The notes below the pieces were generated by a model. That model worked only from the letters and a program-made list of their open reading frames with translations, was not told the DNA's origin and ran no database searches. Below are positions 49,065-64,000 of a stretch of DNA of 64,000 bases, piece by piece (position 1 is the stretch's first letter; every line of letters begins with the position of its first letter). The DNA lies in the NCBI RefSeq assembly GCF_031195445.1, contig NZ_CP133480.1:4580501-4644500 (forward strand), given 5' to 3'. The stretch is from Acuticoccus sp. MNP-M23. Its GTDB lineage: Bacteria > Pseudomonadota > Alphaproteobacteria > Rhizobiales > Amorphaceae. The position numbers and the translations under genes are program-made.

Positions 49065-49874
49065 TCAGCTGCGCTTGCGCGGAGTGGTGCGGCGCACGGG
49101 ACGCGCCGTGGCCGGCGAAGGCCGCCACTGGCGCGAGCCGATTTCCCCGTCCCGCACCAGCTCCATCTGCATGGTGAACCGCTCGGGGTGGTAGAGCGCG
49201 TGAAGGTGCTCCATCCCCTCGCTGTTTGGCCCGTAGACAACGCGGGTCAACGAGACGAGCGGCGCCCCCGTGTCCACATCCAGCGCTTCGGACACTTCCG
49301 GGCCGGCAAGAACCGCGCTGATGTCCTGCCGCGCGAACTCGGTCTTGAGGCCGGAGCGCTCCATCAGCTCCAGAAGCGGCATCTTCGCAAGGTCGCTCTC
49401 GGAGTAGACCGAACCGATGCGCCCCGGCACGTGCGCGGTGAGGTAGGAAAATGGCTGATCGTCCACCAGCCGCACGCGCACCGAACGCTGGACGACTTCA
49501 CCGCTCTTGAGCCCGAGCGCCACGCGCACCGGCTCCGGCGGTTTTATGTATTCAAACGAGATCAGCCGCACATTGGTGGTGCGGCCCATGGTGATCAGCC
49601 CGGTGAAGACATTGGCCACATCGGTGATGAGCGCACGGACCTTGGCCGGCTGGCGGGTGACGAAGGTGCCGGACCCGGCCCGGCGTTCGATCATCCCCTC
49701 TTCGGCAAGGCGGGCCAGCGCCCGGCGGATGGTCACACGCGAGACGTCGAATTCGCCGGCAAGCTTCGGCTCGCCGGGCAGGCGCGCGTCCGGTTCAAGT
49801 TCCCCCGCCACGATGCGGTCACGCAGGACGAGATAGACCTTCTGCGTCTTCAGAGGGTCTGTGGAAAGCCTCAC
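49065..49874 (-). CDS. GntR-family (HutC subfamily, UTRA domain) regulator
   Basis: The 269-aa regulator has a winged helix (about 8-78; L-A-G-E-F-D-V-S-R-V-T-I-R-R-A-L-A-R-L) and a UTRA effector domain (about 95-240) with R-S-V-R-V-R-L-V-D-D-Q-P-F-S-Y-L-T-A-H-V-P. HutC-type proteins respond to small metabolites of the pathway they regulate. The GTG at 49874 has GGAGG 10 bases upstream; a longer frame to 49958 adds a Gly-rich tail without similarity. It is the last gene of the leftward unit and the probable regulator of the whole island. Confidence 0.88.
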   Translation of the reverse strand: MRLSTDPLKTQKVYLVLRDRIVAGELEPDARLPGEPKLAGEFDVSRVTIRRALARLAEEGMIERRAGSGTFVTRQPAKVRALITDVANVFTGLITMGRTTNVRLISFEYIKPPEPVRVALGLKSGEVVQRSVRVRLVDDQPFSYLTAHVPGRIGSVYSESDLAKMPLLELMERSGLKTEFARQDISAVLAGPEVSEALDVDTGAPLVSLTRVVYGPNSEGMEHLHALYHPERFTMQMELVRDGEIGSRQWRPSPATARPVRRTTPRKRS

Positions 49875-49927
49875 CTTGAATGTCCCTCCTGGACCCTGGC
49901 GGCTCAGCGTGGCGGCCGGGAGCGGGG

Positions 49928-49949
49928 TTTGGCGGTTTCGGCCGCCAAA
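49928..49949. repeat. perfect 8-bp inverted repeat in the leftward operon
   Basis: TTTGGCGG (49928-49935) and CCGCCAAA (49942-49949) are perfect arms with a 6-base spacer. It lies between the 107-aa protein gene and the HutC regulator gene. It could be an RNA hairpin or a second operator. Confidence 0.5.
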
Positions 49950-49964
49950 AGCAACCATTCAGTG

Positions 49965-50288
49965 TCAACCACCGCGTGAGGCCTGCGGTACGCTGCGCGA
50001 CCCGGCACGCAGCGGCGTCCGCCGGTCGCCTCGCTCGGCCAGAATGTCGAAGAGCCGGGCCTGCGCCGCGTCCAGCGCAGCGCGGGCGTCGGCGGTAAAC
50101 GCCGCGTCGCCGGCCAGCGCCTTCAACGCTTCCGGGTCAACGCTTGCGGACCGGGTCAGCACCGTTTCGAGCGCCATGCGCCGCTGCCGCTCCTGATGCA
50201 GCTGCGCCGCCAGGTCGAACACCAGCGCGGCGAGCTTGTCGATGTCGGGATCCGCAAAGAAGCTCAGCTCCTTCAATTCTCCGCTCAT
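49965..50288 (-). CDS. 107-aa protein of unknown function
   Basis: The protein (start MSGELKELSFFADPDIDKLA) is predicted to be mostly helical: a segment D-K-L-A-A-L-V-F-D-L-A-A-Q-L-H-Q-E-R-Q-R-R-M-A-L followed by alanine-rich helices. It has no signal peptide and no cysteine. Its ATG overlaps the stop of the methyltransferase gene as ATGA, so it is translated with the enzyme and may be a small subunit or partner. I do not recognise the family. Confidence 0.7.
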   Translation of the reverse strand: MSGELKELSFFADPDIDKLAALVFDLAAQLHQERQRRMALETVLTRSASVDPEALKALAGDAAFTADARAALDAAQARLFDILAERGDRRTPLRAGSRSVPQASRGG

Positions 50289-51346
50289 GACGCTTTCTCC
50301 GCTTCCAGCACAGCCCAGGGGAAATGCCACTCCGTGCGCTCGGGCCAGGCCAGCGCATCGAGGCGGCCGGCGCCCCGCTCGTCAAACGCGCGCCAGCCGG
50401 CATTCTTCAGCCCCGCCGCCTCACACATTGCCACCGTGTCCGCGCTCATGGCGCCGGGCATGAACGGCTCGTTGTTGCGCGCCCCGTGGCAGGCGATGTG
50501 GTGATCGCGGAACGGATCGCCGGTGAACTGGAAGTCCAGCATCCGCAAGAGACCGCCGGGCTTGAGGAGCCGTGCCGCCTCCGCAATGGTCGCCTCCAGA
50601 ACCGGGCGCGGCACTTCGTGCAGAAGCATGGTGGAAGCGACCAGATCGGCCGACCCTGCCGCCAGCTCTGTCTTCCGGCAATCGGCCTGTCTGTAGTCGA
50701 TGGCAAGGCCCAGCGCCTCGGACTTCTGGTGCGCCATCCTGAGGCACGGCGCAGCAAGGTCGATGCCGATCACCTCGGCATCCGGAAACGCGCGCTTCAT
50801 GGGCCAGGTGGACTTGCCGAACCCGCAGCCGAGATCCACCAGCCGCGTCACCTTCTGCCCGTGCAGCGGCCCGAGACACGTGTCAACAAAGGCGCGGTGG
50901 AAGGTGTAGTCGTCGTTGCCGCCCAGCATGACGAGCTTTGCCCCCAGCTCGTAGGTGTGGGCCGACATGTCGCTCTGCCACACGCCGCCGGGCTGCACAT
51001 GAATGTCCCAGTCGGTGTACCAGGACGGCATTGCAAGGTCGGGGTCGAGCGTCAGGCTTCCGGCGGGCGCGTGCGGCGGCTGGATGGGTGCGATATCCGC
51101 CACCGCGCTTTCGACCGCACGCCACAGCATTTTCTGCGAGCCCCGCTCCATCCATGCAAACCAGGGGTAGATGGACAGCGTTTGAGCGGCCTCGCCTGCG
51201 GCGGCGCGGTTTTCTGGCGGTGCGCTGGCGGTGGCGTCGTCATACTCGGCGCGCAGGGCGGAGTAGAGCCGGTCCGCCCAGCGGCGGCGCAAGGCCAGCA
51301 CGAAATCGAGTTCGGCGGCCGTGTCGAGGGGATGGGGTGTCGCCAT
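50285..51346 (-). CDS. class I SAM-dependent methyltransferase
   Basis: The 353-aa protein has a helical N-terminal part (about 1-140) and a Rossmann-type methyltransferase domain (about 165-300), with motif I V-D-L-G-C-G-F-G-K-S, acidic G-I-D-L-A-A and M-L-L-H-E-V-P in the position of motif IV. The ATG at 51346 has AGAGGA five bases upstream. It is 28 bp after the flavoprotein gene on the same strand and overlaps the next gene by 4 bp. A methyltransferase beside a demethylase-type flavoprotein suggests methyl-group chemistry, but the acceptor is unknown. Confidence 0.85.
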   Translation of the reverse strand: MATPHPLDTAAELDFVLALRRRWADRLYSALRAEYDDATASAPPENRAAAGEAAQTLSIYPWFAWMERGSQKMLWRAVESAVADIAPIQPPHAPAGSLTLDPDLAMPSWYTDWDIHVQPGGVWQSDMSAHTYELGAKLVMLGGNDDYTFHRAFVDTCLGPLHGQKVTRLVDLGCGFGKSTWPMKRAFPDAEVIGIDLAAPCLRMAHQKSEALGLAIDYRQADCRKTELAAGSADLVASTMLLHEVPRPVLEATIAEAARLLKPGGLLRMLDFQFTGDPFRDHHIACHGARNNEPFMPGAMSADTVAMCEAAGLKNAGWRAFDERGAGRLDALAWPERTEWHFPWAVLEAEKAS

Positions 51347-51374
51347 GTGGTCCTCTTGTGGTGCCTGCAAACGG

Positions 51375-53390
51375 TCAGAGCATGGAAGCGGCCTGATGGC
51401 CTTCGAAGACGGCTTCAAGCGCCGTGCGGGGTGCCTCGGCATCGCCGATGACGTGGACCGGCAAGGCATTCTCCCCGGGCCGGTCGGCTCCGGCCAGCTC
51501 GGCTGCCAGCTGATTGCGCGGAACGCCGTGGACCGGCGCGACCACCGCGTCCACGCCGTCGAGGTTCTGGCTGGCTCCGGTGGAGAGGTCCGTGATTGTC
51601 GCCGTGCCGTTCGCAAAGCCGGTGAGTGTGGCCAGCGCACGGATGGCAACGCCCTTGTCCTTCAGCCGCTGGCGAAGGGCGAAGCTGGAATAGACCGAAA
51701 TGGTCCACCCCGGCACGCCGGTGGGCGCCAGAAGCGTGACCGTGTGGCCGCGATCCGCCAGCCATTCGGCAACGGCAACCACAGTCCAGGTGCCGAGCCT
51801 GTCCTCCAGCACCACATTGCGGCCGAGCGCTGACCCTGCGTCCATGGCCGCTTCCACGGTCATCGCCGCGCCGGTTTCGAGCGCCAGCGCGCGGGGCGCG
51901 GCCCCGGTCGCCAGGATCACCGCATCGGCGCCGGCCGCGCGCAAAGCCTGCGCCGTTGCGGCGTGGCCTGTGCGAAGCGTCACGCCTGTGCGGTCGAGCT
52001 TTGCTGCCTGATATTCGAGGAGGCGGGCAAAATCGGCCCGCAGCGGCATCGCCGCCACGCGCGCCAGCGCGCCGCCGACGGCTGGCGCTTCATCCCACAG
52101 CTCCACGTCGTGGCCGCGCTCTGCCGCCGTGGCGGCGGCTTCCAACCCGCCAGGCCCCGCCCCCACCACCACAACGCGCCGGGCTGCCCCTTGCGCAAGC
52201 TGTGGGGCGGCCAGCATCTCGCGGCCGGTGGCGGGGTTGGTGAGGCAGGTGATGGGAAGGTTCAGCGCCAGAAAGCCCGCGCACCCCTGGTTGCAGTTGA
52301 TGCAGGGGCGGATTTCGGCGTCCCGGCCCGCCCGGCTCTTTGCCACAAGGGCAGGCTCGGCAATGTGGGCACGCGCCATGCCAACCATGTCTGTCCCGCC
52401 CGAAGCAATCGCCGCCTCGGCCTCGTCCATCGTGCGGAACTTGCAGACTGCCATCACCGGCGGCGGCACCGGCAGGTCCGACAAGGCAGCCTTGATGGCT
52501 GGCGCAAAGTGGCGGAACGCATCGTTCGCAAAGGCCATGTCGGCCATCTGCATCGAGATGGTGGCACTGCCGTGATAGGCTGAATGGCTGACGTTGACGA
52601 AGTCCACCTTCACCGCGCCGGCAAGCTGGCGGACGATCCGCGTCATGTCTTCAAGGCAAAGGCCGCCGGGCAGGAACTCGTCCGCGCTGATGCGGATGCC
52701 GAGCGTGGCATCGCCCACCGCCGCGCGCACGGCTTCAAGGGTTTCCAGCGAAAACCGGAGCCGGTTGTCAGCACTGCCGCCATAGCGGTCGGTCCGCACG
52801 TTGACCGCGGGCGACAGGAATTGCTGCAGCAAATGGCCGTGGGCCATCTGCAGCTCGATGCCGTCGAGACCGGCTTCCAGCATGTTGAGCGCCGTGCGGA
52901 CATGACCGTCCACCACCGCTGCAATCTCCGCCTCGCTCATCGGGTGCGGCGGGGGCGCAGTCGTCGTCCACGGCGTTGGCGACGAACTCCACGCCGCGGT
53001 GCGGGTGAAGTTGCCGTCGATGTGGCGGCCGAGATGGATGATCTGGCCGAACAGCTTCGCCCCGCCCTCATGGACGGCATCGGCCACCCTTGCGAACGCC
53101 GGCACTGCCGCATCCTCGTAGCCGTTCACCCCTTGCGCGCGGCCGAGCGAACTTTGGTGAACGCGAATGCCCTCGAAGATGATGAGCGCAACGCCGCCTT
53201 CGGCGCGCGCCCTGTGATAGGCTGCATGCCTGTCAGTCGGCAGGTTGGCATGGCCAAAATTGGTGGTGTGCGCCGGCACGAAAATCCGGTTCCGCAAGAC
53301 CGTCCGGCCCACGGCAATCGGGGCCAGCGCGGCACTGAACCGGCTGGAAGGGTCATTCGCGCTGGCGTCTGCGATCGGTGCGATTGCCAT
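51375..53390 (-). CDS. TMADH / 2,4-dienoyl-CoA reductase-like flavoprotein (FMN, 4Fe-4S, NAD(P)/FAD domains)
   Basis: The 671-aa protein starts with an old-yellow-enzyme FMN barrel (about 20-355; N-R-I-F-V-P-A-H-T-T-N-F, then M-A-H-G-H-L-L-Q-Q-F-L-S-P-A-V-N and D-R-Y-G-G-S). An iron-sulfur motif C-I-N-C-N-Q-G-C plus a fourth cysteine follow near residues 363-383, then a dinucleotide-binding domain starting V-V-V-V-G-A-G-P-G-G-L-E (about 396). This is the layout of trimethylamine dehydrogenase, dimethylamine dehydrogenase, N-methylproline demethylase and dienoyl-CoA reductase. All four Fe-S cysteines are present. It heads the leftward operon, with GGAAAG before the ATG. Confidence 0.9.
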   Translation of the reverse strand: MAIAPIADASANDPSSRFSAALAPIAVGRTVLRNRIFVPAHTTNFGHANLPTDRHAAYHRARAEGGVALIIFEGIRVHQSSLGRAQGVNGYEDAAVPAFARVADAVHEGGAKLFGQIIHLGRHIDGNFTRTAAWSSSPTPWTTTAPPPHPMSEAEIAAVVDGHVRTALNMLEAGLDGIELQMAHGHLLQQFLSPAVNVRTDRYGGSADNRLRFSLETLEAVRAAVGDATLGIRISADEFLPGGLCLEDMTRIVRQLAGAVKVDFVNVSHSAYHGSATISMQMADMAFANDAFRHFAPAIKAALSDLPVPPPVMAVCKFRTMDEAEAAIASGGTDMVGMARAHIAEPALVAKSRAGRDAEIRPCINCNQGCAGFLALNLPITCLTNPATGREMLAAPQLAQGAARRVVVVGAGPGGLEAAATAAERGHDVELWDEAPAVGGALARVAAMPLRADFARLLEYQAAKLDRTGVTLRTGHAATAQALRAAGADAVILATGAAPRALALETGAAMTVEAAMDAGSALGRNVVLEDRLGTWTVVAVAEWLADRGHTVTLLAPTGVPGWTISVYSSFALRQRLKDKGVAIRALATLTGFANGTATITDLSTGASQNLDGVDAVVAPVHGVPRNQLAAELAGADRPGENALPVHVIGDAEAPRTALEAVFEGHQAASML

Positions 53391-53411
53391 GTTGACTTTC
53401 CGTTATGCACC

Positions 53412-53440
53412 ATCATAGCCTTGTACTAAGTTTAATACAA
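53412..53440 (-). promoter_or_regulatory. predicted promoter of the leftward operon
   Basis: On the minus strand TTGTAT (53440-53435) and TATGAT (53417-53412) are 17 bp apart. The palindrome at 53420-53441 covers the -35 element and most of the spacer, so a bound repressor would block polymerase. Confidence 0.55.
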
Positions 53441-53441
53441 G
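53420..53441. promoter_or_regulatory. 22-bp palindrome, candidate operator of the HutC-type regulator
   Basis: The outer arms CTTGTA (53420-53425) and TACAAG (53436-53441) are perfect, and nine of eleven symmetric pairs match over the whole site. It is AT-rich, lies centrally in the 89-bp space between the two divergent units, and is the best operator candidate in the window. Confidence 0.7.
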
Positions 53442-53479
53442 AAACTGCAACAAGCGTGCGAACGGAGCAGCGGTGAACA

Positions 53480-54544
53480 ATGTCTGAGGCCCTCGCAAAC
53501 GACGCCCGCATCGCACCGGCAGCGGTTCCGCTGGCATTCAACCCGGTTCCCGGCCGGGACTGGACGCGCGCCGACCTCGACGCCCGCGCCGACCAGATCG
53601 TCCGCCCGGTCCCCGCAGCATTGAACGCGGAAATTGCCCGGATGCTTGAGCGTTTGCGCCGGCAGGGGCTGACGCTCGACACGGTGGAAACCGAAGACAC
53701 CCTCCTCCCCGCGCTGGCCGCCATGGCGCCCCAGCTGCGCGCCGAGCTGGACACCGGCTCCGGCGTGACCGTTCTGCGCGGCCTTGCGGTGGACGGGTTG
53801 TCCGGGGAGGACGCCAGCATTGTCGCCTTTGCCATCGGCAATCATCTCGGCCGCATCATGCGGCAGGGCATTGCCACGGACAGGCGGATCTTCACCGTCA
53901 CCAACACCGGCGCTGAAACCACCGACCCGATCCGGATCGGCGCCACCGCCAAACGCTCCGCCATGCACTCGGACAATGGCTGCCTGGAACGCCGCGCGGC
54001 GGATTATCTGGGCCTCCTGTGCGCCGAAAATGCCGCAGCTGGCGGCGAGAGCACGCTGGTGTCCGGCCAGACGCTGTACCGCACCATCGTTGCCGAGCGG
54101 CCGGATCTCCTGCCCCATTTTCACCGCGCGTGGCATTTCCTGCCGCCGCGGCTGCACACCTGGCCCGAAGGCCCCGAAACCATCGCAAAGCCGATTTTCG
54201 ACACCGAGGACGGCGAACTGCACGTCCACTACGCCCGTGTGATGATCGAGCCTGGCCAGAAGCTCGCCGGCGCACCGCTGACGGACGCCGAGCGCGACGC
54301 GTTCGACTGGTTCGATGCGCTGCTGGAGCGCGACGAGATCGTCTGGACCTACACGCTGGAGCCCGGCGATCTGCTTCTGACCCACAACCTTGCGACGCTC
54401 CACGGCCGCCTTGCCTTTTCCGACGACGGCACCAAGCGCCGCGTTCTGAAACGCATCTGGATGCGCCAGCGCGGCCGCGGCATGCGTGATGACCCCGCCC
54501 TACTCGCCCTCGACCTCGACCGTTACGGGAGCCAAGCCCTTTGA
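53480..54544 (+). CDS. TauD/TfdA-family Fe(II)/2-oxoglutarate-dependent dioxygenase
   Basis: The 354-aa enzyme should use Fe(II), O2 and 2-oxoglutarate to hydroxylate or oxidatively cleave a substrate. The iron-binding H-x-D is in M-H-S-D-N-G (about 156-160), the distal histidine in T-L-H-G-R-L-A-F-S-D and the 2-oxoglutarate arginine in R-V-L-K-R-I-W-M-R. It has no N-terminal DUF971 domain as in gamma-butyrobetaine hydroxylases. It begins the rightward operon. Its stop overlaps the TTG start of the DUF2848 gene, so the two are translated together. Confidence 0.9.
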   Translation: MSEALANDARIAPAAVPLAFNPVPGRDWTRADLDARADQIVRPVPAALNAEIARMLERLRRQGLTLDTVETEDTLLPALAAMAPQLRAELDTGSGVTVLRGLAVDGLSGEDASIVAFAIGNHLGRIMRQGIATDRRIFTVTNTGAETTDPIRIGATAKRSAMHSDNGCLERRAADYLGLLCAENAAAGGESTLVSGQTLYRTIVAERPDLLPHFHRAWHFLPPRLHTWPEGPETIAKPIFDTEDGELHVHYARVMIEPGQKLAGAPLTDAERDAFDWFDALLERDEIVWTYTLEPGDLLLTHNLATLHGRLAFSDDGTKRRVLKRIWMRQRGRGMRDDPALLALDLDRYGSQAL

Positions 54545-55293
54545 GCCGCACACTCGACCTCACCGCCCAATCGCGAGATGGGGCCACCGCGCCGCTTTCG
54601 CTGGACCTTGCGGCCGTCATGAACATGGGGTCGGCCACGCGCGACCCCGCCGTCGCCAAGCTCCACCAGGACGAGGTGGCGCTCCACGGCGTTGCCATCG
54701 CCACCAATGTGCCGGCCCCGCGCCTTTACCCCATGGCGGTCGATGGCCTTTCCACCGGGACCCGTGTGGAGGTCCACACCGGGGAAACTTCCGGCGAGGT
54801 GGAGATCGTCCTCATTTTCGCCGACCAGCTTTATGTGGGCGTCGGCTCCGACCACACCGACCGCCTCCTCGAAAAGGCGTCCATTCCCTATTCCAAGCAG
54901 GCTTGCGCCAACGTGATCGCGCCCACGGTGTGGCCGTTCGCCGAGATTGCCGACACCTGGGACCAGTGCATCCTGCGCTCCTGGGTGGACGGGCGGCTTT
55001 ACCAGGAGGTGGGCGTCGATGCCTTCCTGCGCCCCGAGGACATTGCGGCGATGCTGGCCGACCGCGCGCCGGGCTTTGCGCAGAAGGACACCGTTGCCTT
55101 CTGCGGCACCATCGTCAGCGTCGACAAGCGTCTCGGCTTCGGCTCCCGCTGGGAGTTCGAGATCGAAGACCCCGTCGGCGGCCGCTCCATCCGCCACGCC
55201 TACGACGTGGTCGACATGTTTCAGATGATCCGTCCCGAGTACCGCGTACCGGTGCTGACCGGCACCATCGGCCCCGACTCCCTCAAAACCTGA
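54541..55293 (+). CDS. DUF2848 protein
   Basis: The 250-aa protein is a DUF2848 member. It includes V-H-T-G-E-T-S-G-E-V-E-I-V, V-G-V-G-S-D-H-T-D-R, the S-K-Q-A-C-A-N stretch and a C-terminal G-S-R-W-E-F-E-I-E-D-P. From memory I think the family may be related to FAH-type hydrolases, but I cannot confirm it. The start is a TTG at 54541 with GGGAG upstream, within the dioxygenase stop. Coupling to the dioxygenase suggests it acts on that enzyme's product. No biochemical function is established that I know of. Confidence 0.8.
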   Translation: MSRTLDLTAQSRDGATAPLSLDLAAVMNMGSATRDPAVAKLHQDEVALHGVAIATNVPAPRLYPMAVDGLSTGTRVEVHTGETSGEVEIVLIFADQLYVGVGSDHTDRLLEKASIPYSKQACANVIAPTVWPFAEIADTWDQCILRSWVDGRLYQEVGVDAFLRPEDIAAMLADRAPGFAQKDTVAFCGTIVSVDKRLGFGSRWEFEIEDPVGGRSIRHAYDVVDMFQMIRPEYRVPVLTGTIGPDSLKT

Positions 55294-55305
55294 CGAGGCG
55301 ACGAC

Positions 55306-56886
55306 ATGATCAAATACGCCAAGGCCGCCGCTTTATCGGCCCTCCTCCTCTCCGCAACGGCGCTCACCACAATTGTTCCGGGCTCGGCACAGGCGCAGAC
55401 GCTGGTGATTGCCGCCCCCGCGGTCCCCGAAGGCTTCGACGGTGATGCGCTGCGCCCCGGCACGCAAAGCGTGGTGACGCAGGTTTACGAAAACCTGATG
55501 CGCTACGGCCGGACCGAGCGCGACGGGCGCCCGTACCTCGACGCGTCGGTGATCGAGCCGCATCTGGCCGAAAGCTACGCGGTGTCGGACGACGGCCTGA
55601 CCTACACCATCAAGCTGCGCGAAGGGGTGATGAGCCCCTACGGCAACGAGTTGACCGCCGACGACGTGGAATGGTCGTGGAACAAGTCGTTCGACCAGAA
55701 GCGCACCGGCAACTTCATCGCCCGCGTGGCCAACGTGGAAAGTGTGAACGCCAAGTCCAAATACGAGGTCGAGTTTCACCTCGGCGCGCCCAGCTCCATC
55801 TTCCTGTCGGCGCTGACGCTTTATGTGCCCGGCATCTACGATTCCACCGAGGTGAAGAGCCACGCCACCGAGGACGACCCGTGGGCGCTGGAGTGGCTGG
55901 CCAGCAACACCGCCGGCTTTGGCGCCTACCACCTGCAGCAGGTGCGGCCCGACGAGGCGGCGATGTTTACCGTCAACCCCAACTACTTCGGCGAAAAGCC
56001 CTATTTCGAGCGGGTGATGTACCGTGAGGTGCCGTCCGCCGCCAGCCGGGCAACACTTCTCCTCTCCGGCCAGGCGCAGTGGATCGACCGTCCGTCGATC
56101 CAGCAGGTGGTCGACCTGCGCGACGACCCGCGCGTGAAGGTGGAAGACTCCCCCGGTCGCGCCATGCTGGCTGCCCGCATGAACCCCACCTTCAAGCCGT
56201 TCGACGATGTGAAGGTGCGTCAGGCACTCAACTATGCGATCGACCGCGAAGAGCTGATGGCGAGCGTTCTGCGCGGCACCGGCGATACGGGCGATTCTCT
56301 CGTTCCGCCGATTGTCGACGGGTACGATCCGTCCTTCTTCGACTACACCCACGACCCGGAGAAGGCGAAGGCGATGCTGGCCGAAGCCGGCTACCCGGAC
56401 GGCTTCGAGGTGGAGCTTCTTTATTCGGACCTGTGGTGGTGGCTGGAGCCGCTCTCGATCCAGCTCGCCAGCCAGCTTGCCGACGTCGGCGTGACGGTGA
56501 AGCCGATCCGCATCACCGGCTCCGACATGCGCTCGCGCGGCTCGCCCGGCACATCGGACATGCCGTTCTTTGTGTTCGAGGACGGGCCGATCGTGCTCGA
56601 CCCGGTCTACACCTTCTATCTCCTCGCGCACTCCGATGGCGTGTCGAACCGGATGAAGTACAGCAACCCCGAGCTTGATGCGCTGATCGACGAAGCCCGT
56701 CAGACGCTGGACCGCGACAAGCGGCTCGCCCTGATGACGCAGGCGCAGGAGCTTTGGATGGCCGAAGCGCCGTGGCTGACGGTCGCCTACCCGCGCGTGT
56801 TCGAGGCGATGTCCCCCAACATCGTCGGCTGGACCCCGTACCCGGACGACCACGAACGCTGGGCCGACCTCAGCATCGAGGAATAG
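55306..56886 (+). CDS. ABC transporter substrate-binding protein, family 5 (paralogue 1)
   Basis: The 526-aa protein has a signal peptide (cleavage near residue 30, A-Q-A) and the full SBP_bac_5 fold, with F-D-G-D-A-L-R-P-G-T-Q, L-R-E-G-V-M-S-P-Y-G-N-E-L-T-A-D-D-V and E-L-L-Y-S-D-L-W-W-W-L-E-P. It captures the ligand in the periplasm for the transporter encoded downstream. GAGG precedes the ATG. The next gene encodes a very similar protein, sharing these blocks almost unchanged. Ligands of this family include peptides, opines, nickel complexes and various amines. Confidence 0.92.
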   Translation: MIKYAKAAALSALLLSATALTTIVPGSAQAQTLVIAAPAVPEGFDGDALRPGTQSVVTQVYENLMRYGRTERDGRPYLDASVIEPHLAESYAVSDDGLTYTIKLREGVMSPYGNELTADDVEWSWNKSFDQKRTGNFIARVANVESVNAKSKYEVEFHLGAPSSIFLSALTLYVPGIYDSTEVKSHATEDDPWALEWLASNTAGFGAYHLQQVRPDEAAMFTVNPNYFGEKPYFERVMYREVPSAASRATLLLSGQAQWIDRPSIQQVVDLRDDPRVKVEDSPGRAMLAARMNPTFKPFDDVKVRQALNYAIDREELMASVLRGTGDTGDSLVPPIVDGYDPSFFDYTHDPEKAKAMLAEAGYPDGFEVELLYSDLWWWLEPLSIQLASQLADVGVTVKPIRITGSDMRSRGSPGTSDMPFFVFEDGPIVLDPVYTFYLLAHSDGVSNRMKYSNPELDALIDEARQTLDRDKRLALMTQAQELWMAEAPWLTVAYPRVFEAMSPNIVGWTPYPDDHERWADLSIEE

Positions 56887-56972
56887 CGCATGCTGGCGGC
56901 GGCGCCTTCCCGCGCCGCCGCCATCCCGACCCGTCCGCCTTTTGCCGCGCCAGCCCCAGGGACCACACCGCC

Positions 56973-58538
56973 ATGAAACTCCGCGCCGCCCTTCTCGCCG
57001 CCGTTGCCGCCACCGCGCTTTCAACCGCAGCGCCCGCCCTTGCCGAAACGCTGGTCATTGCCGCCACCGATGTGCCGGAAGGTTTCGACGGCGACGCGCT
57101 GCGCCCCGGCACGCAGGCCGTCGTCCCGCAGATTTACGAGAACCTCACAAAATATGGCCGGAAGACCGACGAGAATGGCCGCGAGGTGCTGGACCCCGGC
57201 GTGATCGAAGGCAGCCTTGCCGAAAGCTGGACCGTGTCGGACGACGGCACGCGCTACGTCTTCAAGCTGCGCGAAGGGGTGATGAGCCCCTACGGCAACG
57301 AGCTGACCGCGGACGACGTGGTCTGGTCCTGGGAAAAGTCGCGCGAACAGAAGCGCACCGGCAATTTCATCGGCAATGTCGCCAACGTCGACACGGTGGA
57401 GGCGGTTTCCGACTACGAGGTGGCGTTCAACCTCAAGGCACCCAGCTCGATCTTCCTCAACACGATGACGCTTTATGTGCCCGGCATCTACGACAGCACG
57501 GAGATGAAGACCCACGCCACCGAGGCGGACCCCTTCGCCATCGAATGGCTGGTGGACCACACCGCCGGCTTCGGCCCCTACACCTTGAGCGAAGTGCGGC
57601 CCGACGAGGTGGCACTGTTCGTCGCCAACCCCAATTATTACGGCGAAACACCCTATTTCGACCGGGTGATCTACCGGGAAGTCCCCTCCGCCGCGAGCCG
57701 GGCAACGCTGCTCCTCTCCGGTCAGGTGGACTGGATCGACCGGCCGTCCCAGCAGCTCGTCAACGAGTTCATTGACGATGACCGCGTGAAGGTGATGGAC
57801 GCCCCCGGACAGGCCATGATGGCCGCCTGGATGAACCCCAACGTCCCGCCGTTCGACGATCTGCGCGTCCGGCAGGCGCTGAACTACGGCGTCGACCGCC
57901 AGTTGATGATCGATTCGGTGCTGGGCGGAGAAGGCGACATCGCAAAGTCCGTGGTCCCGCTTTTTGTGGACGGCTACGACGACAGCTCTTTCCCCTACAA
58001 CTACAACCCCGAAAAGGCGCGCGAACTTCTCGCCGAAGCCGGCTACGCCGACGGGCTCGAAATCGAGCTTCTGTATTCCGATCTCTGGTGGTGGCTGGAG
58101 CCGTTCACCATCCAGCTCTCCGCCCAGCTCGCCAAGGTTGGCGTGACGGTGAAGCCTGTGCGCCTCACCGGGTCTGACATGCGCTCCCGCTCGGCGCCCG
58201 CGGTGCGCGACATGCCCTTCTTCGTCTACGAAAGCGGCCCCATCGTCCTCGATCCCGGTTACACGCTGTATCTGCTGGCCCACACCGAAGGCGTCTCCAA
58301 CCGCGGCGATTTCAAGAACGAGGAGTTCGACACACTGGTCGAACAGGTGATTGCAACGCCTGACCGCGACAGCCGCCTTGCGTTCGTGAAGCAGGCGCAG
58401 AAAGTCTGGGTCGAGAATGCGCCGTGGGTGATGGTCGCCTACCCCAAGACGTTCGAGGCGATGAAGCCTGACATCGAGGGTTGGGTCTTTCACCCCGACA
58501 ATCACGAGCGCTGGGCCGACCTGACGCGCGCCCAATAG
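56973..58538 (+). CDS. ABC transporter substrate-binding protein, family 5 (paralogue 2)
   Basis: The 521-aa protein has a signal peptide (MKLRAALLAAVAATALSTAA, cleavage near residue 24) and the same fold and motifs as paralogue 1, including F-D-G-D-A-L-R-P-G-T-Q, L-Y-S-D-L-W-W-W-L-E-P and M-P-F-F-V-Y-E-S-G-P-I-V-L-D-P. Differences are scattered, so this is an old tandem duplication rather than a recent copy. AGGGA lies about 11 bases before the ATG. The two proteins probably feed one permease and may bind related ligands with different affinities. Confidence 0.92.
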   Translation: MKLRAALLAAVAATALSTAAPALAETLVIAATDVPEGFDGDALRPGTQAVVPQIYENLTKYGRKTDENGREVLDPGVIEGSLAESWTVSDDGTRYVFKLREGVMSPYGNELTADDVVWSWEKSREQKRTGNFIGNVANVDTVEAVSDYEVAFNLKAPSSIFLNTMTLYVPGIYDSTEMKTHATEADPFAIEWLVDHTAGFGPYTLSEVRPDEVALFVANPNYYGETPYFDRVIYREVPSAASRATLLLSGQVDWIDRPSQQLVNEFIDDDRVKVMDAPGQAMMAAWMNPNVPPFDDLRVRQALNYGVDRQLMIDSVLGGEGDIAKSVVPLFVDGYDDSSFPYNYNPEKARELLAEAGYADGLEIELLYSDLWWWLEPFTIQLSAQLAKVGVTVKPVRLTGSDMRSRSAPAVRDMPFFVYESGPIVLDPGYTLYLLAHTEGVSNRGDFKNEEFDTLVEQVIATPDRDSRLAFVKQAQKVWVENAPWVMVAYPKTFEAMKPDIEGWVFHPDNHERWADLTRAQ

Positions 58539-58559
58539 GCCCGCGGCAGCGCATTCCCG

Positions 58560-59576
58560 ATGTCAGTCAAGAGTTTCCTCCTCCGGCGTGTGGTCTTCAT
58601 CCTGCCGCTCCTCATCGGCATCGTGTTCTTCACGTTCATGCTGGTGCGGCTCGGCGGGCAAGACCCGGTGGAGATGCTGGCCGGCCCCACGGCAACGCAG
58701 GCACAGATCGACATGATCCGCGGCGACCTCGGCCTCGACCAGCCGCTTCTGACCCAGTTCTGGATCTATCTGGGCAACGTGGCCCAGGGCGACCTCGGTC
58801 GCAGCTGGATCTCCTCCCGGCCCGTGCTCACCGATATTCTCCAGCGCATTCCCATCACACTGGAGCTTCTGTTTCTGGGCATCGGCCTTGGCGCGCTGAT
58901 CGGCATTCCGGCCGGGATGCACGCCGCCGGACGGCCTGACGGGTGGTTCGACCAGGCAGCGCGCGCGGTGTCGCTCGTCGGCTTCTCGATCCCCACCTAC
59001 TGGCTGGGGCTCGTGCTTCTCTTCGTGTTCTTCTACCTCCTTGGCTGGGCACCGCCCGGTGTCGGGCGGATCGGGATGATGGTGTTCCCGCCCGAGCGCA
59101 TCACCGGCTCCTACCTGATCGACAGCCTGATTGCCGGTGACATGGAAAGTGCCCGTTCGGCCGCCGCCCACCTCGTCCTGCCTGTCATCGCCATCGCGAT
59201 CATCTCGGCGGCCCCCATCATCAAGCACACCCGCGCCATCGCGCTCGACGTGTTCGGCGGCGATGCTGTGCGCTATGCGCGTGCCTGCGGCCTGCCGGAC
59301 CGCACGGTGCGCAAGATCGTGATGCGCAACGCGACCGTGCCGGTGCTGACGTTCGTCGGCGGCGAGATCACCGGGCTCATCGGCACGGCATCTCTCATCG
59401 AGTTCGTGTTTGCCTGGGGCGGTCTCGGCCAATACGGCCTCAACGCCATTGTCTCCGGCGACTTTGCGGCAGTGCAGGGCTACGTCCTGTTTCTGGCGCT
59501 TTTCTCGGTGGTGGTGTTCCTGATCGTCGACCTCTGCGTCGTCATCCTGGAGCCGCGCAACGTGGAGGCGGCATGA
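58560..59576 (+). CDS. ABC transporter permease, DppB/OppB type
   Basis: The 338-aa inner-membrane protein has about six helices. The N-terminal helix (F-L-L-R-R-V-V-F-I-L-P-L-L-I-G-I) and the Asp-Pro-rich loop after it are typical of the DppB subfamily. The cytoplasmic EAA-type loop appears as D-A-V-R-Y-A-R-A-C-G-L-P. It starts 21 bp after the second binding protein and ends within the next permease gene (ATGA overlap). Confidence 0.93.
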   Translation: MSVKSFLLRRVVFILPLLIGIVFFTFMLVRLGGQDPVEMLAGPTATQAQIDMIRGDLGLDQPLLTQFWIYLGNVAQGDLGRSWISSRPVLTDILQRIPITLELLFLGIGLGALIGIPAGMHAAGRPDGWFDQAARAVSLVGFSIPTYWLGLVLLFVFFYLLGWAPPGVGRIGMMVFPPERITGSYLIDSLIAGDMESARSAAAHLVLPVIAIAIISAAPIIKHTRAIALDVFGGDAVRYARACGLPDRTVRKIVMRNATVPVLTFVGGEITGLIGTASLIEFVFAWGGLGQYGLNAIVSGDFAAVQGYVLFLALFSVVVFLIVDLCVVILEPRNVEAA

Positions 59577-60442
59577 GCGACACCGCGATCCCCCGCCGCC
59601 GCAACCCGTTCGGCCGCATCGCCGGCATTGCCCGGCGCAGCCCCACCGGCGCCATCGGCTTTGCCATCATCGCACTGTTTGCGCTGGCGGCTGCCCTTGC
59701 CCCGTGGATCACGCCATACAACCCCATCGAGGCGTTCCCGCGGCAGATCCTTGCCGAACCCGGCGCCACGTTCTGGTTCGGCACTGATGGCAACGGCATG
59801 GATATATTCTCGCGCGTCATCTACGGCGCCCGTTACGCCTTCGCCATCGCGGTGCCTGCGGTGCTGCTCTCGATGCTGATCGGCGTACCGCTCGGCCTCT
59901 GGGTCGGCTATGTGGGCGGCACGCTGGACGAAGCCACGATGCGCATCTTCGATGCGCTGCGCGTGTTTCCCTCCATCATTCTGGCGCTGGCGGTCGTTGC
60001 CGCCGCCGGACCCTCGGTGCTGAACGTCGTGCTGGTAATCGGCGTTCTGGACAGCCCGATCTTCGCCCGCGTCGTGCGCTCCGAAGTGCTCGCGCTGCGC
60101 TCGTCCACCATGGTCGAGGCGGCACGGGCGGCGGGCAACCCCACATGGCGGATCGTCCTCGTCCACCTTCTTCCCAACACCATGCAAGGGGCGATGGCAC
60201 AGTCGGCCGTGCGCGCGGCGTGGGCCGTGCGGATTTCCGCAGCGCTTGCCTTTCTGGGGGTCGGCATCCAGGTGCCGACGCCGGAATGGGGCGTGATGAT
60301 CCGCCAGGGCGCAGAGTTCATGGTCACCGGGCAATGGTGGGTCGCCCTCTTCCCCGGCCTCGGCCTGATGCTGATGATGCTCGGCCTCAACATGCTCGGC
60401 GACGGTGCGCAGGACCTCCTCAACCCGCGGCGGGTGAAGTGA
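59573..60442 (+). CDS. ABC transporter permease, DppC/OppC type
   Basis: The 289-aa permease has an N-terminal cytoplasmic segment, a first helix (about 22-43) and a periplasmic F-G-T-D-G-N-G-M-D-I-F-S-R-V-I-Y-G-A-R motif characteristic of DppC. The EAA loop is V-E-A-A-R-A-A-G-N-P, and four further helices complete the channel half. The start overlaps the previous stop by 4 bp, and the stop overlaps the next start by one base. Confidence 0.94.
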   Translation: MSDTAIPRRRNPFGRIAGIARRSPTGAIGFAIIALFALAAALAPWITPYNPIEAFPRQILAEPGATFWFGTDGNGMDIFSRVIYGARYAFAIAVPAVLLSMLIGVPLGLWVGYVGGTLDEATMRIFDALRVFPSIILALAVVAAAGPSVLNVVLVIGVLDSPIFARVVRSEVLALRSSTMVEAARAAGNPTWRIVLVHLLPNTMQGAMAQSAVRAAWAVRISAALAFLGVGIQVPTPEWGVMIRQGAEFMVTGQWWVALFPGLGLMLMMLGLNMLGDGAQDLLNPRRVK

Positions 60443-61434
60443 TGACCACGCTCCTTTCGATCCAGAACCTCGAAACCCACTTCGTTGCCCGTACGCTGGA
60501 CAACGAGATCCGCACGGCCCGCGCCCTCAACCGCGTCTCGTTTGATGTGGCACGCGGCGAAATTGTCGGCCTCGTCGGCGAAACGGGCGCGGGCAAGTCG
60601 CTCACCGCGCAGTCCGTGCTCGGCCTCTTGCGTGCCCCGGCACGGGTGGTCGGCGGCACCGCCGCGTTCGGCGGGCGCGACCTTCTCGCCCTGCCGCCCG
60701 GCGAGATGAACACCTTGCGCGGCAACGAGATCGGCCTCGTGGTGCAGAACCCGCGCACCTCGCTGGACCCGCTGTGCCAGATCGGCCGGCAACTTGTCCG
60801 CATCCAGCGCGCGCATCGAACCATGTCGCGCAGAGCCGCCTGGACGCGCGGGATCGAGATGCTGTCCGCCGTCGGCATCCCCGAGCCGGAAAACCGGATG
60901 AAGGCGTGGCCGCACGAACTTTCCGGCGGCATGGCCCAGCGCGTCCTGATGGCCATGGCGCTCGTCAACGAGCCGCGCCTCCTCATTGCCGACGAGCCCA
61001 CCACTGGCCTCGATGTGACCGTCCAGGCCCAGATCCTCGATCTTCTGCGCAAGCTCGTTCTGGAACGGCAGATGGGCGCCATCATCATCACCCACGACCT
61101 CGGCGTGGTGGCGCACTATTGCGAGCAGCTGGCCGTGATGTTCGCCGGCTCCATTGTGGAGCGCGGCCGAACGGCAGACGTGTTCGCCAACCCCAGCCAC
61201 CCCTACACCCGCGCACTCCTGTCGGCGACGCCGGAGCGGTTGCGGCTCGGCACCGGCAGCATCGTCGGCGGTGCCCCGCCCGACCTCTACAACCTGCCGG
61301 ACGGCTGCCACTACCGCGACCGCTGCAAGCGCGAGACTGACCTGTGCCGCACGGCTCCGCCCATGGCCGAGCTTGGCGAGGGCCACGGCGCGCTCTGCCA
61401 CTTTGCCCAAACGCTCAAGGGAGAGCCGATTTGA
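60442..61434 (+). CDS. ABC transporter ATPase, DppD/OppD type
   Basis: The 330-aa ATPase has Walker A G-E-T-G-A-G-K-S, signature L-S-G-G-M-A-Q-R, Walker B L-L-I-A-D-E-P-T-T-G-L-D and the switch H-D-L-G-V-V-A. The C-terminal oligopeptide/dipeptide domain contains the cysteine cluster C-H-Y-R-D-R-C...C, which in relatives binds an Fe-S cluster. The start is joined to the previous stop (TGATG), and the stop overlaps the next TTG start. Confidence 0.94.
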   Translation: MTTLLSIQNLETHFVARTLDNEIRTARALNRVSFDVARGEIVGLVGETGAGKSLTAQSVLGLLRAPARVVGGTAAFGGRDLLALPPGEMNTLRGNEIGLVVQNPRTSLDPLCQIGRQLVRIQRAHRTMSRRAAWTRGIEMLSAVGIPEPENRMKAWPHELSGGMAQRVLMAMALVNEPRLLIADEPTTGLDVTVQAQILDLLRKLVLERQMGAIIITHDLGVVAHYCEQLAVMFAGSIVERGRTADVFANPSHPYTRALLSATPERLRLGTGSIVGGAPPDLYNLPDGCHYRDRCKRETDLCRTAPPMAELGEGHGALCHFAQTLKGEPI

Positions 61435-62432
61435 CCGCCGCCGCAACCGGCACGCAGAGCGCCCGCCCGATCCTCGATGTAGAGAACCTCGTCAAGCACT
61501 TCCCGGCGGGCGGCAAGACCGTTCACGCAGTCAACGACGTCAGCTTTTCCATCCGCCCGTCCGAGATTGTCGGCATGGTCGGCGAATCGGGGTCCGGTAA
61601 ATCCACCATCGGGCGCCTTGCGGTGTCGCTGCTGGGCGCGACCTCGGGCAAGGTCGCGGTGGAGGGCGCCGACCTTGCCGGCCTCAAGGCTGCCGACCTC
61701 CGCGCACTCAGGGCACGAATGCAGATCGTGTTTCAGGACCCGTGGAGCGCCCTCAACCCGCGCATGTCCGTTGGCCGGCAGATCGGCGAGCCGCTGGTGC
61801 TCCACACCGACCTCTCGCGCTCCGCCCGTCGGCAGAAGGTGGAGGAGCTCGCAAAGCGTGTTCAGCTTCCCATCGAATTCCTGTCTCGCGCGCCGTCCGA
61901 GCTGTCGGGCGGGCAGCTCCAGCGGGTCTGCATCGCGCGCGCCATCGCCACCGACCCGGCGCTGATCGTGCTCGACGAACCCACGTCCTCGCTGGACCTC
62001 TCGGTCCGCGCCGGAATTCTCGATCTGCTGGCAAAGCTGCGCGCCGAGCTTGGGGTGGCGATGCTGTTCATCTCCCACGACCTTGGCACGGTGAAGCTGG
62101 TGTCGGACCGGATCGTCGTCCTCTACCTCGGCACGGTGGTGGAGGAAGGCCCCGCCGCCACCGTCTTCAACGATCCGGCGCACCCCTACACGCAGGCGCT
62201 TCTTTCCGCGCACCTGCCGCCGGACCCTGCCGCAAAACTCTCCCGCCACGTGCTGGAGGGCGAAGTGCCAAGCCCGATCAACCTGCCTGAAGGGTGCCGC
62301 TTTTCCTCGCGCTGCCCGCTGGCGATCGACGCCTGCCGCCGCGAACTTCCAAAGCTCATTCCCGCCGGACCGGACGGGCGCCGCGCCGCCTGCCTGCGCA
62401 TCGAAAGTGGCGAGAACCGCCTCTCGCTCTAG
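61431..62432 (+). CDS. ABC transporter ATPase, DppF/OppF type
   Basis: The 333-aa ATPase has Walker A G-E-S-G-S-G-K-S-T, Q-loop V-F-Q-D-P-W-S-A-L-N-P-R typical of DppF, signature L-S-G-G-Q-L-Q-R and Walker B L-I-V-L-D-E-P-T-S-S-L-D. It also ends with the cysteine-containing oligo/dipeptide C-terminal domain. The TTG start at 61431 overlaps the previous TGA and has AGGGAG upstream. It completes the transporter with DppD-type partner and the two permeases. Confidence 0.93.
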   Translation: MTAAATGTQSARPILDVENLVKHFPAGGKTVHAVNDVSFSIRPSEIVGMVGESGSGKSTIGRLAVSLLGATSGKVAVEGADLAGLKAADLRALRARMQIVFQDPWSALNPRMSVGRQIGEPLVLHTDLSRSARRQKVEELAKRVQLPIEFLSRAPSELSGGQLQRVCIARAIATDPALIVLDEPTSSLDLSVRAGILDLLAKLRAELGVAMLFISHDLGTVKLVSDRIVVLYLGTVVEEGPAATVFNDPAHPYTQALLSAHLPPDPAAKLSRHVLEGEVPSPINLPEGCRFSSRCPLAIDACRRELPKLIPAGPDGRRAACLRIESGENRLSL

Positions 62433-62461
62433 GACGCCCGCGACAACAGGACCGAAAACAA

Positions 62462-64000
62462 GTGCAAGCCATTGCCCCCCGCTCCCCGTACAAAACGCTG
62501 CTGAGCCCCATGAAGGTCGGCCCGCGGACCTTGAAGAACCGCGCCTGGATGCTCGCCCATGCCACGCTGCTGGTGAAGGACAACCTCTTCACCGACGCGC
62601 ACGTCGGCTACTATGTGGCGCGCGCCAGGGGCGGCGTTTCCGCCATCACCATGGAAGCGATGGCTGTCCACCCCACAACGCAGCCCTACAAGGGCAAGGC
62701 GTTCGCGTTCGATGAGCGGATGGTGGAACAATATCGCAAGATTGCAGCGCCCGTGCAGGCGGAGGGGGCGCTCCTCCTGATGCAGCCGTGGCACCGCGGG
62801 CGGCAGACGAACTCGGTCGCCAACGGGCTGCCGGTGTGGTCGCCGAGCGCCGCCCCCTGCGCCGTTTACCGCGAGATGCCGCATGTGATGACCGGCGCCG
62901 ACATTGCCGAGATCATCGAGGGTTATCGCCTCTCCGCCCGCTACGCGAGGGTCGGCGGACTGGACGGCGTGGAAGTTGCCGGCATGGCGCACGGCTATCT
63001 TCTCAACCAGTTCCTGTCGCCGGGCATCAACAACCGCACCGACGCTTATGGCGGCTCGCTGGAAAACCGCCTGCGCATCGTCGAGGAGATCCTCGCCGCG
63101 ACCCGCGAAGAGGTCGGCGACGACATGGTCATCGGCGTGCGGATGAACGGTGAGGACGGGCACGACAGCGGCAACCACCCGGAGGCCTGGGCCGAGATTG
63201 CGCAGCGGCTGGAGGCCACCGGCAACGTCGATTATTTCTCGGTCTCGCAGGGCACCTACATCAACCGGATGCTGATCTACCCGACAAGCCCCGAGGGCCA
63301 CGGCTACCAGCTTCCCGCCACCCAGCAGATCGCCAACGCCGTGTCGGTGCCCGTGATCGGCGCCGGCCGGATCGTCACCCACGCCGAGGCCGAGCAATAT
63401 CTGGTGGATGGCAAGTGCGAGATCATCGGCATGGCGCGCCAGCTGATCGCGGACCCCAACTGGGTCGCCAAGGCGAAGGATGCGGACGCCGAGCCGATCC
63501 GCCCCTGCGTCGGTGCCAACTGGTGCATGTCGTCGATCTTCGCGCAGGCGCCGATTGCGTGCATCCACAACCCCGCCGCCGGCGCCGAAACGCATTTGTC
63601 CGACGATACGCGGCAGATGGCCGACAAGCGCAAGCGCGTTGCCGTGGTCGGCGGTGGCCCCGCTGGCCTGCAAGCGGCACTGACCGCCGCCAGGCGCGGC
63701 CATCAGGTCACGGTGTTCGAAGCACGGGCGAAGCTTGGCGGGCAGGTGCGGCTCTGGGCCGAGGCCCAGTCGCGCCGCGAGCTGGTGCAGATCGTCGACT
63801 GGCTGATCGACCGCCTTGCCGAGACCAACACCGAGGTCCGCCTCAACACCCACGCCGATGCCGCCATGCTGAGCGAAATGGGCTTTGATGCCGTGGTGGT
63901 CGCCGCCGGTGCCAGGGGCCTGAAACACGGCTGGTCGCCGCTGCGGCCCGAACACTGGGTCGATGGCACCAGCGTGGAGGGGGCCGAGGGTCCCAACGTC
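62462..64000 (+). CDS. second TMADH-like flavoprotein, cut by the right edge
   Basis: A GTG start at 62462, with AGGA about 10 bases upstream, opens a frame of 513 codons to the window edge. The FMN barrel (about 10-345) has N-R-A-W-M-L-A-H, H-G-Y-L-L-N-Q-F-L-S-P-G-I-N and T-D-A-Y-G-G-S. The Fe-S region reads C349-V-G-A352-N-W-C355 with C367, so the position of the second cluster cysteine (Cys348 in trimethylamine dehydrogenase) is alanine. The dinucleotide domain starts V-A-V-V-G-G-G-P-A-G-L-Q. It is only distantly similar to the other flavoprotein of the island (51375-53390). Confidence 0.9.
   Translation, partial: MQAIAPRSPYKTLLSPMKVGPRTLKNRAWMLAHATLLVKDNLFTDAHVGYYVARARGGVSAITMEAMAVHPTTQPYKGKAFAFDERMVEQYRKIAAPVQAEGALLLMQPWHRGRQTNSVANGLPVWSPSAAPCAVYREMPHVMTGADIAEIIEGYRLSARYARVGGLDGVEVAGMAHGYLLNQFLSPGINNRTDAYGGSLENRLRIVEEILAATREEVGDDMVIGVRMNGEDGHDSGNHPEAWAEIAQRLEATGNVDYFSVSQGTYINRMLIYPTSPEGHGYQLPATQQIANAVSVPVIGAGRIVTHAEAEQYLVDGKCEIIGMARQLIADPNWVAKAKDADAEPIRPCVGANWCMSSIFAQAPIACIHNPAAGAETHLSDDTRQMADKRKRVAVVGGGPAGLQAALTAARRGHQVTVFEARAKLGGQVRLWAEAQSRRELVQIVDWLIDRLAETNTEVRLNTHADAAMLSEMGFDAVVVAAGARGLKHGWSPLRPEHWVDGTSVEGAEGPNV

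Follow-up and report, generated by a model that had tools for sequence, protein, structure and literature searches.

We analyzed a 64-kb stretch of the genome of Acuticoccus sp. MNP-M23 (G000:C1:4580501-4644500; the window, whose numbering is used for all coordinates below), in which two gene units, starting with a regulator gene at 49065, diverge from a shared control region. The view that these genes belong to a dedicated import-and-degradation pathway is well supported, because Acuticoccus mangrovi keeps nearly all of them, and because a TauD-type dioxygenase gene lies within 1.8 kb of the gene for the left flavoprotein, FlavL, in all four sampled genomes that have an orthologue of the dioxygenase. 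As for extent and chemistry, we give an approximately even chance to a joint reading: these genes are the upper part of an accessory catabolic island of ~28 kb (49065 to ~76863), and a bulky imported compound would be degraded in two stages, an oxidative/reductive upper part, followed by opening of a cyclic imide or lactam that leads to C-C cleavage. The observations behind this reading are gene content, recurrence, linkage, the predicted folds of two proteins and a palindrome, from which we infer every reaction and the substrate class. Among the papers listed in searches of an open-access library, no title or opening of an abstract sets out a pathway with this gene set.

Gene families were assigned from Pfam and NCBIfam scans; DppB, DppC, EamA, an SDR-like gene and LeuD were named by reading alone. 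The left unit (minus strand) comprises a GntR/UTRA (HutC-type) regulator of 297 aa (49065-49958), a small protein of 107 aa (p107; 49965-50288), a class I S-adenosylmethionine (SAM) methyltransferase of 353 aa (50285-51346; Pfam Methyltransf_25/11 above cut-off), and FlavL, 671 aa (51375-53390), with Pfam Oxidored_FMN and NAD(P)/FAD domains. Beyond the 89-bp control region (53391-53479), the right unit (plus strand) begins with the TauD-type Fe(II)/2-oxoglutarate dioxygenase, 354 aa (53480-54544), and a DUF2848 protein, 250 aa (54541-55293; Pfam 160 bits). These are followed by two family-5 solute-binding proteins that are 68% identical to each other (SBP1, 55306-56886; SBP2, 56973-58538; Pfam SBP_bac_5 265 and 269 bits), the DppB-like and DppC-like permeases (58560-59576 and 59573-60442; A. 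mangrovi orthologues at 81% and 84%), the DppD-like and DppF-like ATPases (60442-61434 and 61431-62432, the latter with an uncertain start codon; both Pfam ABC_tran and oligo_HPY), and the right flavoprotein, FlavR, 654 aa (62510-64474, past the window end at 64000), with the same two-domain layout as FlavL. Thus, the genes that an earlier note had listed are all present in the order claimed, and they do diverge from a shared 89-bp gap. The tight packing described there was also confirmed, as the 12 gene borders between the regulator and FlavR consist of five overlaps of 1-4 bp and seven gaps of 6-89 bp. The same note, however, considered 49065-64000 to be self-contained, which does not hold, because FlavR ends outside the window and is followed by CMD (64501-64908), EamA (65391-66347) and a second block. 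The latter consists of genes for a GMC oxidoreductase (66375-68111), an isochorismatase-type amidase (Isoch; 68044-68637), HyuA (68634-70691), HyuB (70688-72418) and an isocitrate-lyase-type enzyme (ICL; 72415-73374), all on the minus strand, and, on the plus strand, the SDR-like gene (73755-74753), LeuC (74813-76237) and LeuD (76234-76863). An apparent sugar-acid gene run after LeuD (77286-82017, read from translations) was taken as the island border.

The best named methyltransferase match, among the best 80 of 188 matches, is in A. mangrovi B2012 (G003; 77%), and this is the only one of seven other genomes of the genus with a methyltransferase at E<=1e-20; therefore, the island is accessory. 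The upper part in A. mangrovi has the order p107-methyltransferase-FlavL / DUF2848-SBP1-SBP2-DppBCDF-FlavR-CMD, with a second GMC gene and EamA, and it continues as GMC-Isoch-HyuA-HyuB-ICL, the SDR-like gene, LeuC and LeuD, at identities from 55% (SDR-like) to 87% (CMD). TauD and the regulator are missing from this island, so neither is an indispensable neighbour. It should be noted that none of the seven other genomes of the genus has a TauD match at E<=1e-30, which weakens TauD as an island-defining gene. Among 385 genomes of the class, own genome included, TauD orthologues were detected in four (E<=1e-45) and FlavL in six (E<=1e-130). In G290, FlavL and TauD are divergent and 123 bp apart, followed by DUF2848-SBP-DppBCDF-FlavR-CMD-GMC, and the methyltransferase and p107 are convergent to this unit. 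In G089 and G219, which represent one genus of another family (f81), the genes FlavL-GMC-TauD-DUF2848-(c31 protein)-SBP-DppBCDF run in one direction, with FlavL and TauD 1.7 kb apart in this operon-like run. The order TauD-DUF2848-SBP-DppBCDF is therefore found in three families, counting the own genome. The earlier note had proposed to search for the same gene set elsewhere and to ask whether related genomes carry the two divergent halves far apart; the set recurs as described, and the halves are adjacent in A. mangrovi and close in the other three genomes.

The methyltransferase and p107 are a recurrent pair. We gathered 82 methyltransferase loci, of which 47 are closer and 35 more distant: the window, 77 loci kept from the best 80 of 188 matches (L064-L140), L014, L054, L055 and L058; some of them come from one genome. 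The controls were 38 stretches from G000, G074 and G437, genomes that themselves carry a methyltransferase homologue; 42 random positions were drawn and 40 retrieved, two of which were left out (one overlapped a methyltransferase locus and one another stretch). p107 has no Pfam or NCBIfam match. Its homologues were sought with a profile built from 32 homologues in the loci of this analysis and the p107 of the window. In 65 of the 82 loci (39/47 closer and 26/35 more distant), the methyltransferase has a p107 homologue on its own strand within 1 kb, compared to any match at all in one of the 38 controls. The transporters next to the pair vary and, by reading, belong to the family-5 ABC or TRAP types, or are MFS proteins accompanied by TonB receptors. 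In our reading, four of the hydrolase families near the methyltransferase may open cyclic amides; one or more of them occur in 24/82 loci versus 1/38 controls (one-sided Fisher p 3e-4): HyuA in 4 loci, the polysaccharide-deacetylase type in 10, the amidohydrolase type in 7 and the cyclase type in 6. LeuC (15/82 versus 0/38) and the regulator type (17/82 versus 0/38) were also found there, and 11 of the 15 loci with LeuC have one of the four hydrolases, versus 13 of the 67 other methyltransferase loci. The methyltransferase model (predicted local distance difference test, pLDDT, 91.2) carries the motif DLGCGFG and has general class I matches only, with TMq <=0.51 among 50 listed PDB matches. 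Several further features of methyltransferase loci were recorded. In L065, L066, L068, L070 and L051, a family-5 ABC operon lies between two methyltransferase paralogues of opposite orientation. Homologues at 45-56% occur in Actinomadura, Pseudonocardia, Blastococcus and a Chloroflexota metagenome-assembled genome (L094, L096, L098-L101, L105, L108), pointing to wide transfer. Two recurring neighbour families (L127:11103-11621 in 11 loci and L115:5390-6040 in 6 loci) have no Pfam match at E<=0.001.

In the two-stage reading, the family-5 ABC transporter and its two related binding proteins would take up a bulky, peptide-sized compound, as suggested by the transporter family. In no fixed order, GMC, TauD, the DUF2848 protein with its fumarylacetoacetate-hydrolase (FAH) fold, two flavoproteins of the old yellow enzyme (OYE)/FadH type, CMD, and the methyltransferase with p107 would then oxidise, reduce and fragment it. 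TauD is a clear member of its family (103.5 bits versus the Pfam cut-off of 27), with the metal ligands in HSD at 163-165 (H163-S-D165) and His308. Its nearest solved relative is FrbJ (5eqn), an enzyme of antibiotic biosynthesis, and several antibiotic enzymes are among the fold matches of the methyltransferase; together with GMC and OYE genes, this might suggest a natural-product tailoring cluster that is not catabolic. We consider such a function extremely unlikely, because no core synthase is among the genes named in 49-77 kb, and because the binding-protein importer and the ring-opening, amidase and C-C lyase genes argue for degradation. The DUF2848 model (pLDDT 89.4) has its best PDB match in 3s52 (E 3e-9), and all 50 PDB matches listed belong to the FAH family or are related to it (TMq 0.50-0.60); therefore, the protein probably acts on oxo acids, as a C-C hydrolase, a decarboxylase or an isomerase. 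Two residues that do not vary among 18 sequences, Glu86 and Glu88, are candidate metal-binding acidic residues. In-frame TGA codons listed in two DUF2848 homologues raised the possibility of selenocysteine; when three homologues were aligned, two had a stop within the aligned part, each time at the tail (residues 231 and 244 of 250), and the idea was dropped for this reason.

The earlier note inferred that the imported compound is probably N-methylated or heavily substituted and called both flavoproteins trimethylamine-dehydrogenase-like. Histamine-dehydrogenase-type enzymes have a cysteine that binds FMN covalently, and trimethylamine dehydrogenase has an aromatic bowl for the trimethylammonium group. 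FlavL and FlavR are 32% identical; both share the two-domain order of these dehydrogenases and have them among their best PDB matches. For FlavL, the nearest solved structures are NCR (6qkg), histamine dehydrogenase (3k30) and FadH (1ps9). Removal of N-methyl groups by oxidation, from an amine, an amino acid or a betaine, would be consistent with this architecture, and also with the TauD protein, whose weak NCBIfam matches, far below cut-off, include two trimethylammonium-compound dioxygenases. However, among 21 aligned sequences (including two repeats from the same contigs, L064 = L013 and L073 = L050), no cysteine was found at the flavin-binding site, where FlavL has Thr (Cys in 3k30) and FlavR has Ala (LAHATLL). 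Furthermore, FlavR has three of the four cysteines of the [4Fe-4S] site, the second being absent from its motif CVGANWC, as in the three alignment rows of FlavR; FlavL keeps all four. No formaldehyde-handling gene is among the named genes, no search aimed at such genes having been made. Demethylation of the trimethylamine dehydrogenase type was rejected on these residues, and we regard this explanation as very unlikely. The part of the earlier claim that concerns a dedicated import-and-degradation pathway is supported, whereas the N-methylated substrate is unsupported. An Fe-S motif without the second cysteine was also seen in FlavL homologues of L014, L118 and L128 (CIAHN-FC, CVAHN-FC and CVANN-FC).

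The domains of both flavoproteins are also those of FadH (2,4-dienoyl-CoA reductase), BaiCD, BilR/BilV and NCR. At the site of Tyr166 of FadH, FlavL reads AHGH and FlavR AHGY; HGHL is found in FlavL and its 14 nearest rows, and in two more rows with another flank, and HGYL in FlavR and its three rows. FlavL does not reach the NCBIfam cut-offs for BaiCD, bilirubin reductase and mycofactocin OYE 2. An assignment of FlavL as bilirubin reductase was rejected on this score and on the motif, as neither HGHL nor HGYL is the HGDR of BilR given in PMC10769871. In BilV, the motif AHAH occupies the position of HGDR, according to PMC13252198; its likeness to AHGH of FlavL was given no weight, since the two do not correspond residue for residue.

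In the second stage of the preferred reading, HyuAB would use ATP to open the ring of a cyclic imide or lactam, and the half-amide would be hydrolysed by the isochorismatase-type enzyme. LeuCD would hydrate the alkylmaleate so formed, and cleavage of the hydrated product by the isocitrate-lyase-type enzyme would yield pyruvate (or glyoxylate) plus a small acid. Cyclic imide degradation proceeds through an imidase and a half-amidase to a dicarboxylate, and nicotinate fermentation ends via dimethylmaleate. The proposed order of ring opening, half-amide hydrolysis, hydratase and C-C lyase is similar; the likeness is in the order of chemistry. A metal imidase acts in the imide pathway, and HyuAB would take its place in the island. 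The island lyase scores lower against the 2,3-dimethylmalate lyase 3fa3 than against methylisocitrate lyases, and it shares the family and the KRCGH motif (KRCGHL in ICL) with PrpB of the 2-methylcitrate pathway, whereas the hydratase of the island would be LeuCD. LeuC meets the NCBIfam leuC cut-off (648 versus 560 bits) and is a second copy, 57% identical to the other LeuC of this genome. Alternatively, HyuAB might open a hydantoin or another ureide to a carbamoyl compound that is stripped by the isochorismatase-type enzyme, for which the closest NCBIfam models, biuret amidohydrolase and RutB, are both matched below cut-off. This explanation is consistent with several neighbours of methyltransferase loci: a ureidoglycolate-lyase-family protein (four members), amidohydrolases that are dihydropyrimidinase-like by reading, and polysaccharide-deacetylase-family proteins related to the PuuE allantoinase (the latter two in the 7 and 10 loci given above). 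Nevertheless, we find it unlikely, since a carbamoyl-amino-acid product leaves LeuCD, which acts on alkylmaleates, and the C-C lyase without an obvious role.

Additional information on the second stage comes from operons that contain only the lower genes. Among the best 20 of 181 HyuA records, homologues at 61-76% are located on plasmids of Azospirillum, Roseomonas, Neorhizobium, Allorhizobium and Sulfitobacter. The five regions examined, in Azospirillum, Roseomonas, Neorhizobium and Sulfitobacter, are free-standing operons with a GntR-type regulator, a transporter (branched-chain-type ABC or TRAP), ICL, HyuB, HyuA, the amidase and an FAD oxidoreductase. Three of them also contain LeuCD, with LeuC proteins 65-67% identical to that of the island. 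Such operons have transporters of their own, which suggests two adjoining but separate pathways, one (49-65 kb) that would degrade the imported compound and another (HyuAB-LeuCD) for a different small cyclic amide or imide. Moreover, G219 and G089 carry the upper unit without a close HyuA, and the two blocks are on different contigs in G290. On the other hand, the blocks are linked, with different transporters, in two Acuticoccus species and in G022, from another family of the same order, where the lower block, regulator and LeuCD directly adjoin CMD-GMC-FlavL-methyltransferase-p107 and a TRAP transporter; p107 and the methyltransferase also adjoin the lower block in G437. In addition, the regulators of the five free-standing operons are relatives of the one in the left operon (46-57% identity over 59-267 aa compared). 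We consider two separate pathways possible, although doubtful.

The preferred reading, a single two-stage pathway, has several observations against it. HyuA and HyuB have their best NCBIfam models in the two subunits of the ATP-dependent caprolactamase CapAB, yet they score far under the cut-offs (488 and 311 versus 1000 bits), and ICL does not reach that of PrpB (2-methylisocitrate lyase; 268 versus 354 bits). HyuA has many paralogues, with 16 matches in A. mangrovi (E<=1e-60); as a separate observation, this is a large paralogue expansion compared to four matches in the own genome. Two of the five free-standing operons contain PrpD instead of LeuCD, and LeuC of G437 is only 38% identical to that of the island. 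The lower genes on the other contig of G290 lack LeuCD within the 8.7 kb examined. A close HyuA orthologue is absent from G219, G089 and G395, a genome with FlavL (best 38%), and from G283 (best 48%); because no HyuA above 38% was found in the first three, the upper and lower units are separable. Near the methyltransferase, the hydrolase families are not enriched singly (p 0.06-0.21), and ICL is not enriched either (3/82 versus 1/38 controls). It should be noted that the families used in these enrichment queries were picked from the same loci, and that the controls are from three genomes only. Finally, the regulator scores 114 bits versus the cut-off of 220 for the NCBIfam HutC histidine-utilisation repressor (TIGR02018); its Pfam matches are UTRA (94 bits) and GntR (75 bits).

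Inside the 89-bp gap, a perfect palindrome CTTGTA-N10-TACAAG is located at 53420-53441, through which the regulator might control both divergent operons. It is the sole TTGTA-N(0-12)-TACAA in the 89.4 kb examined, and none was observed in 60 first-order Markov simulations. The matching gap of A. mangrovi carries TTGTACTATTGTTGATACAA; in this species, a regulator homologue (70%) is encoded on another contig and none at the island. Scans of the five free-standing operon loci, of G437, and of loci from G290 and G219 did not find the palindrome, and thus it is a feature of Acuticoccus as far as seen. The FlavL/TauD gap of G290 (L216:6440-6720) contains a different short palindrome, TGTCA-ATA-TGACA, spotted by eye, suggesting another regulator.

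Oxidation of chlorophyll and haem yields alkylmaleimides and hematinic acid. As a guess from chemistry, to which we assign a slim chance, the island might mineralise pyrrole-type tetrapyrrole fragments (bilins, chlorophyll or haem breakdown products). Linear or dipyrrolic fragments would be imported by the Dpp system and cut by the OYE-type flavoproteins and oxidases. HyuAB would open the resulting alkylmaleimides or hematinic acid; after loss of ammonia and hydration by LeuCD, cleavage would give pyruvate and a small acid. In its tricarboxylate form, hematinic acid would be a methyl-homoaconitate, a compound that may suit a LeuCD-type hydratase and a methylisocitrate-lyase-type enzyme. According to PMC7318184, chlorophyll is made and degraded at a scale of 10^12 kg yearly; hematinic acid was found in leaves, maleimides were undetected in the samples of that study, and earlier work cited there reported both hematinic acid and maleimides in senescent leaves and lake sediments. 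If true, the tetrapyrrole explanation would provide a genetic handle on consumers of chlorophyll and haem fragments. Regardless of the substrate, the island gives the family-5 importer, the DUF2848 protein, the TauD-type enzyme, and the methyltransferase with p107 one shared, testable context, and its two defined blocks are places to seek the substrate.

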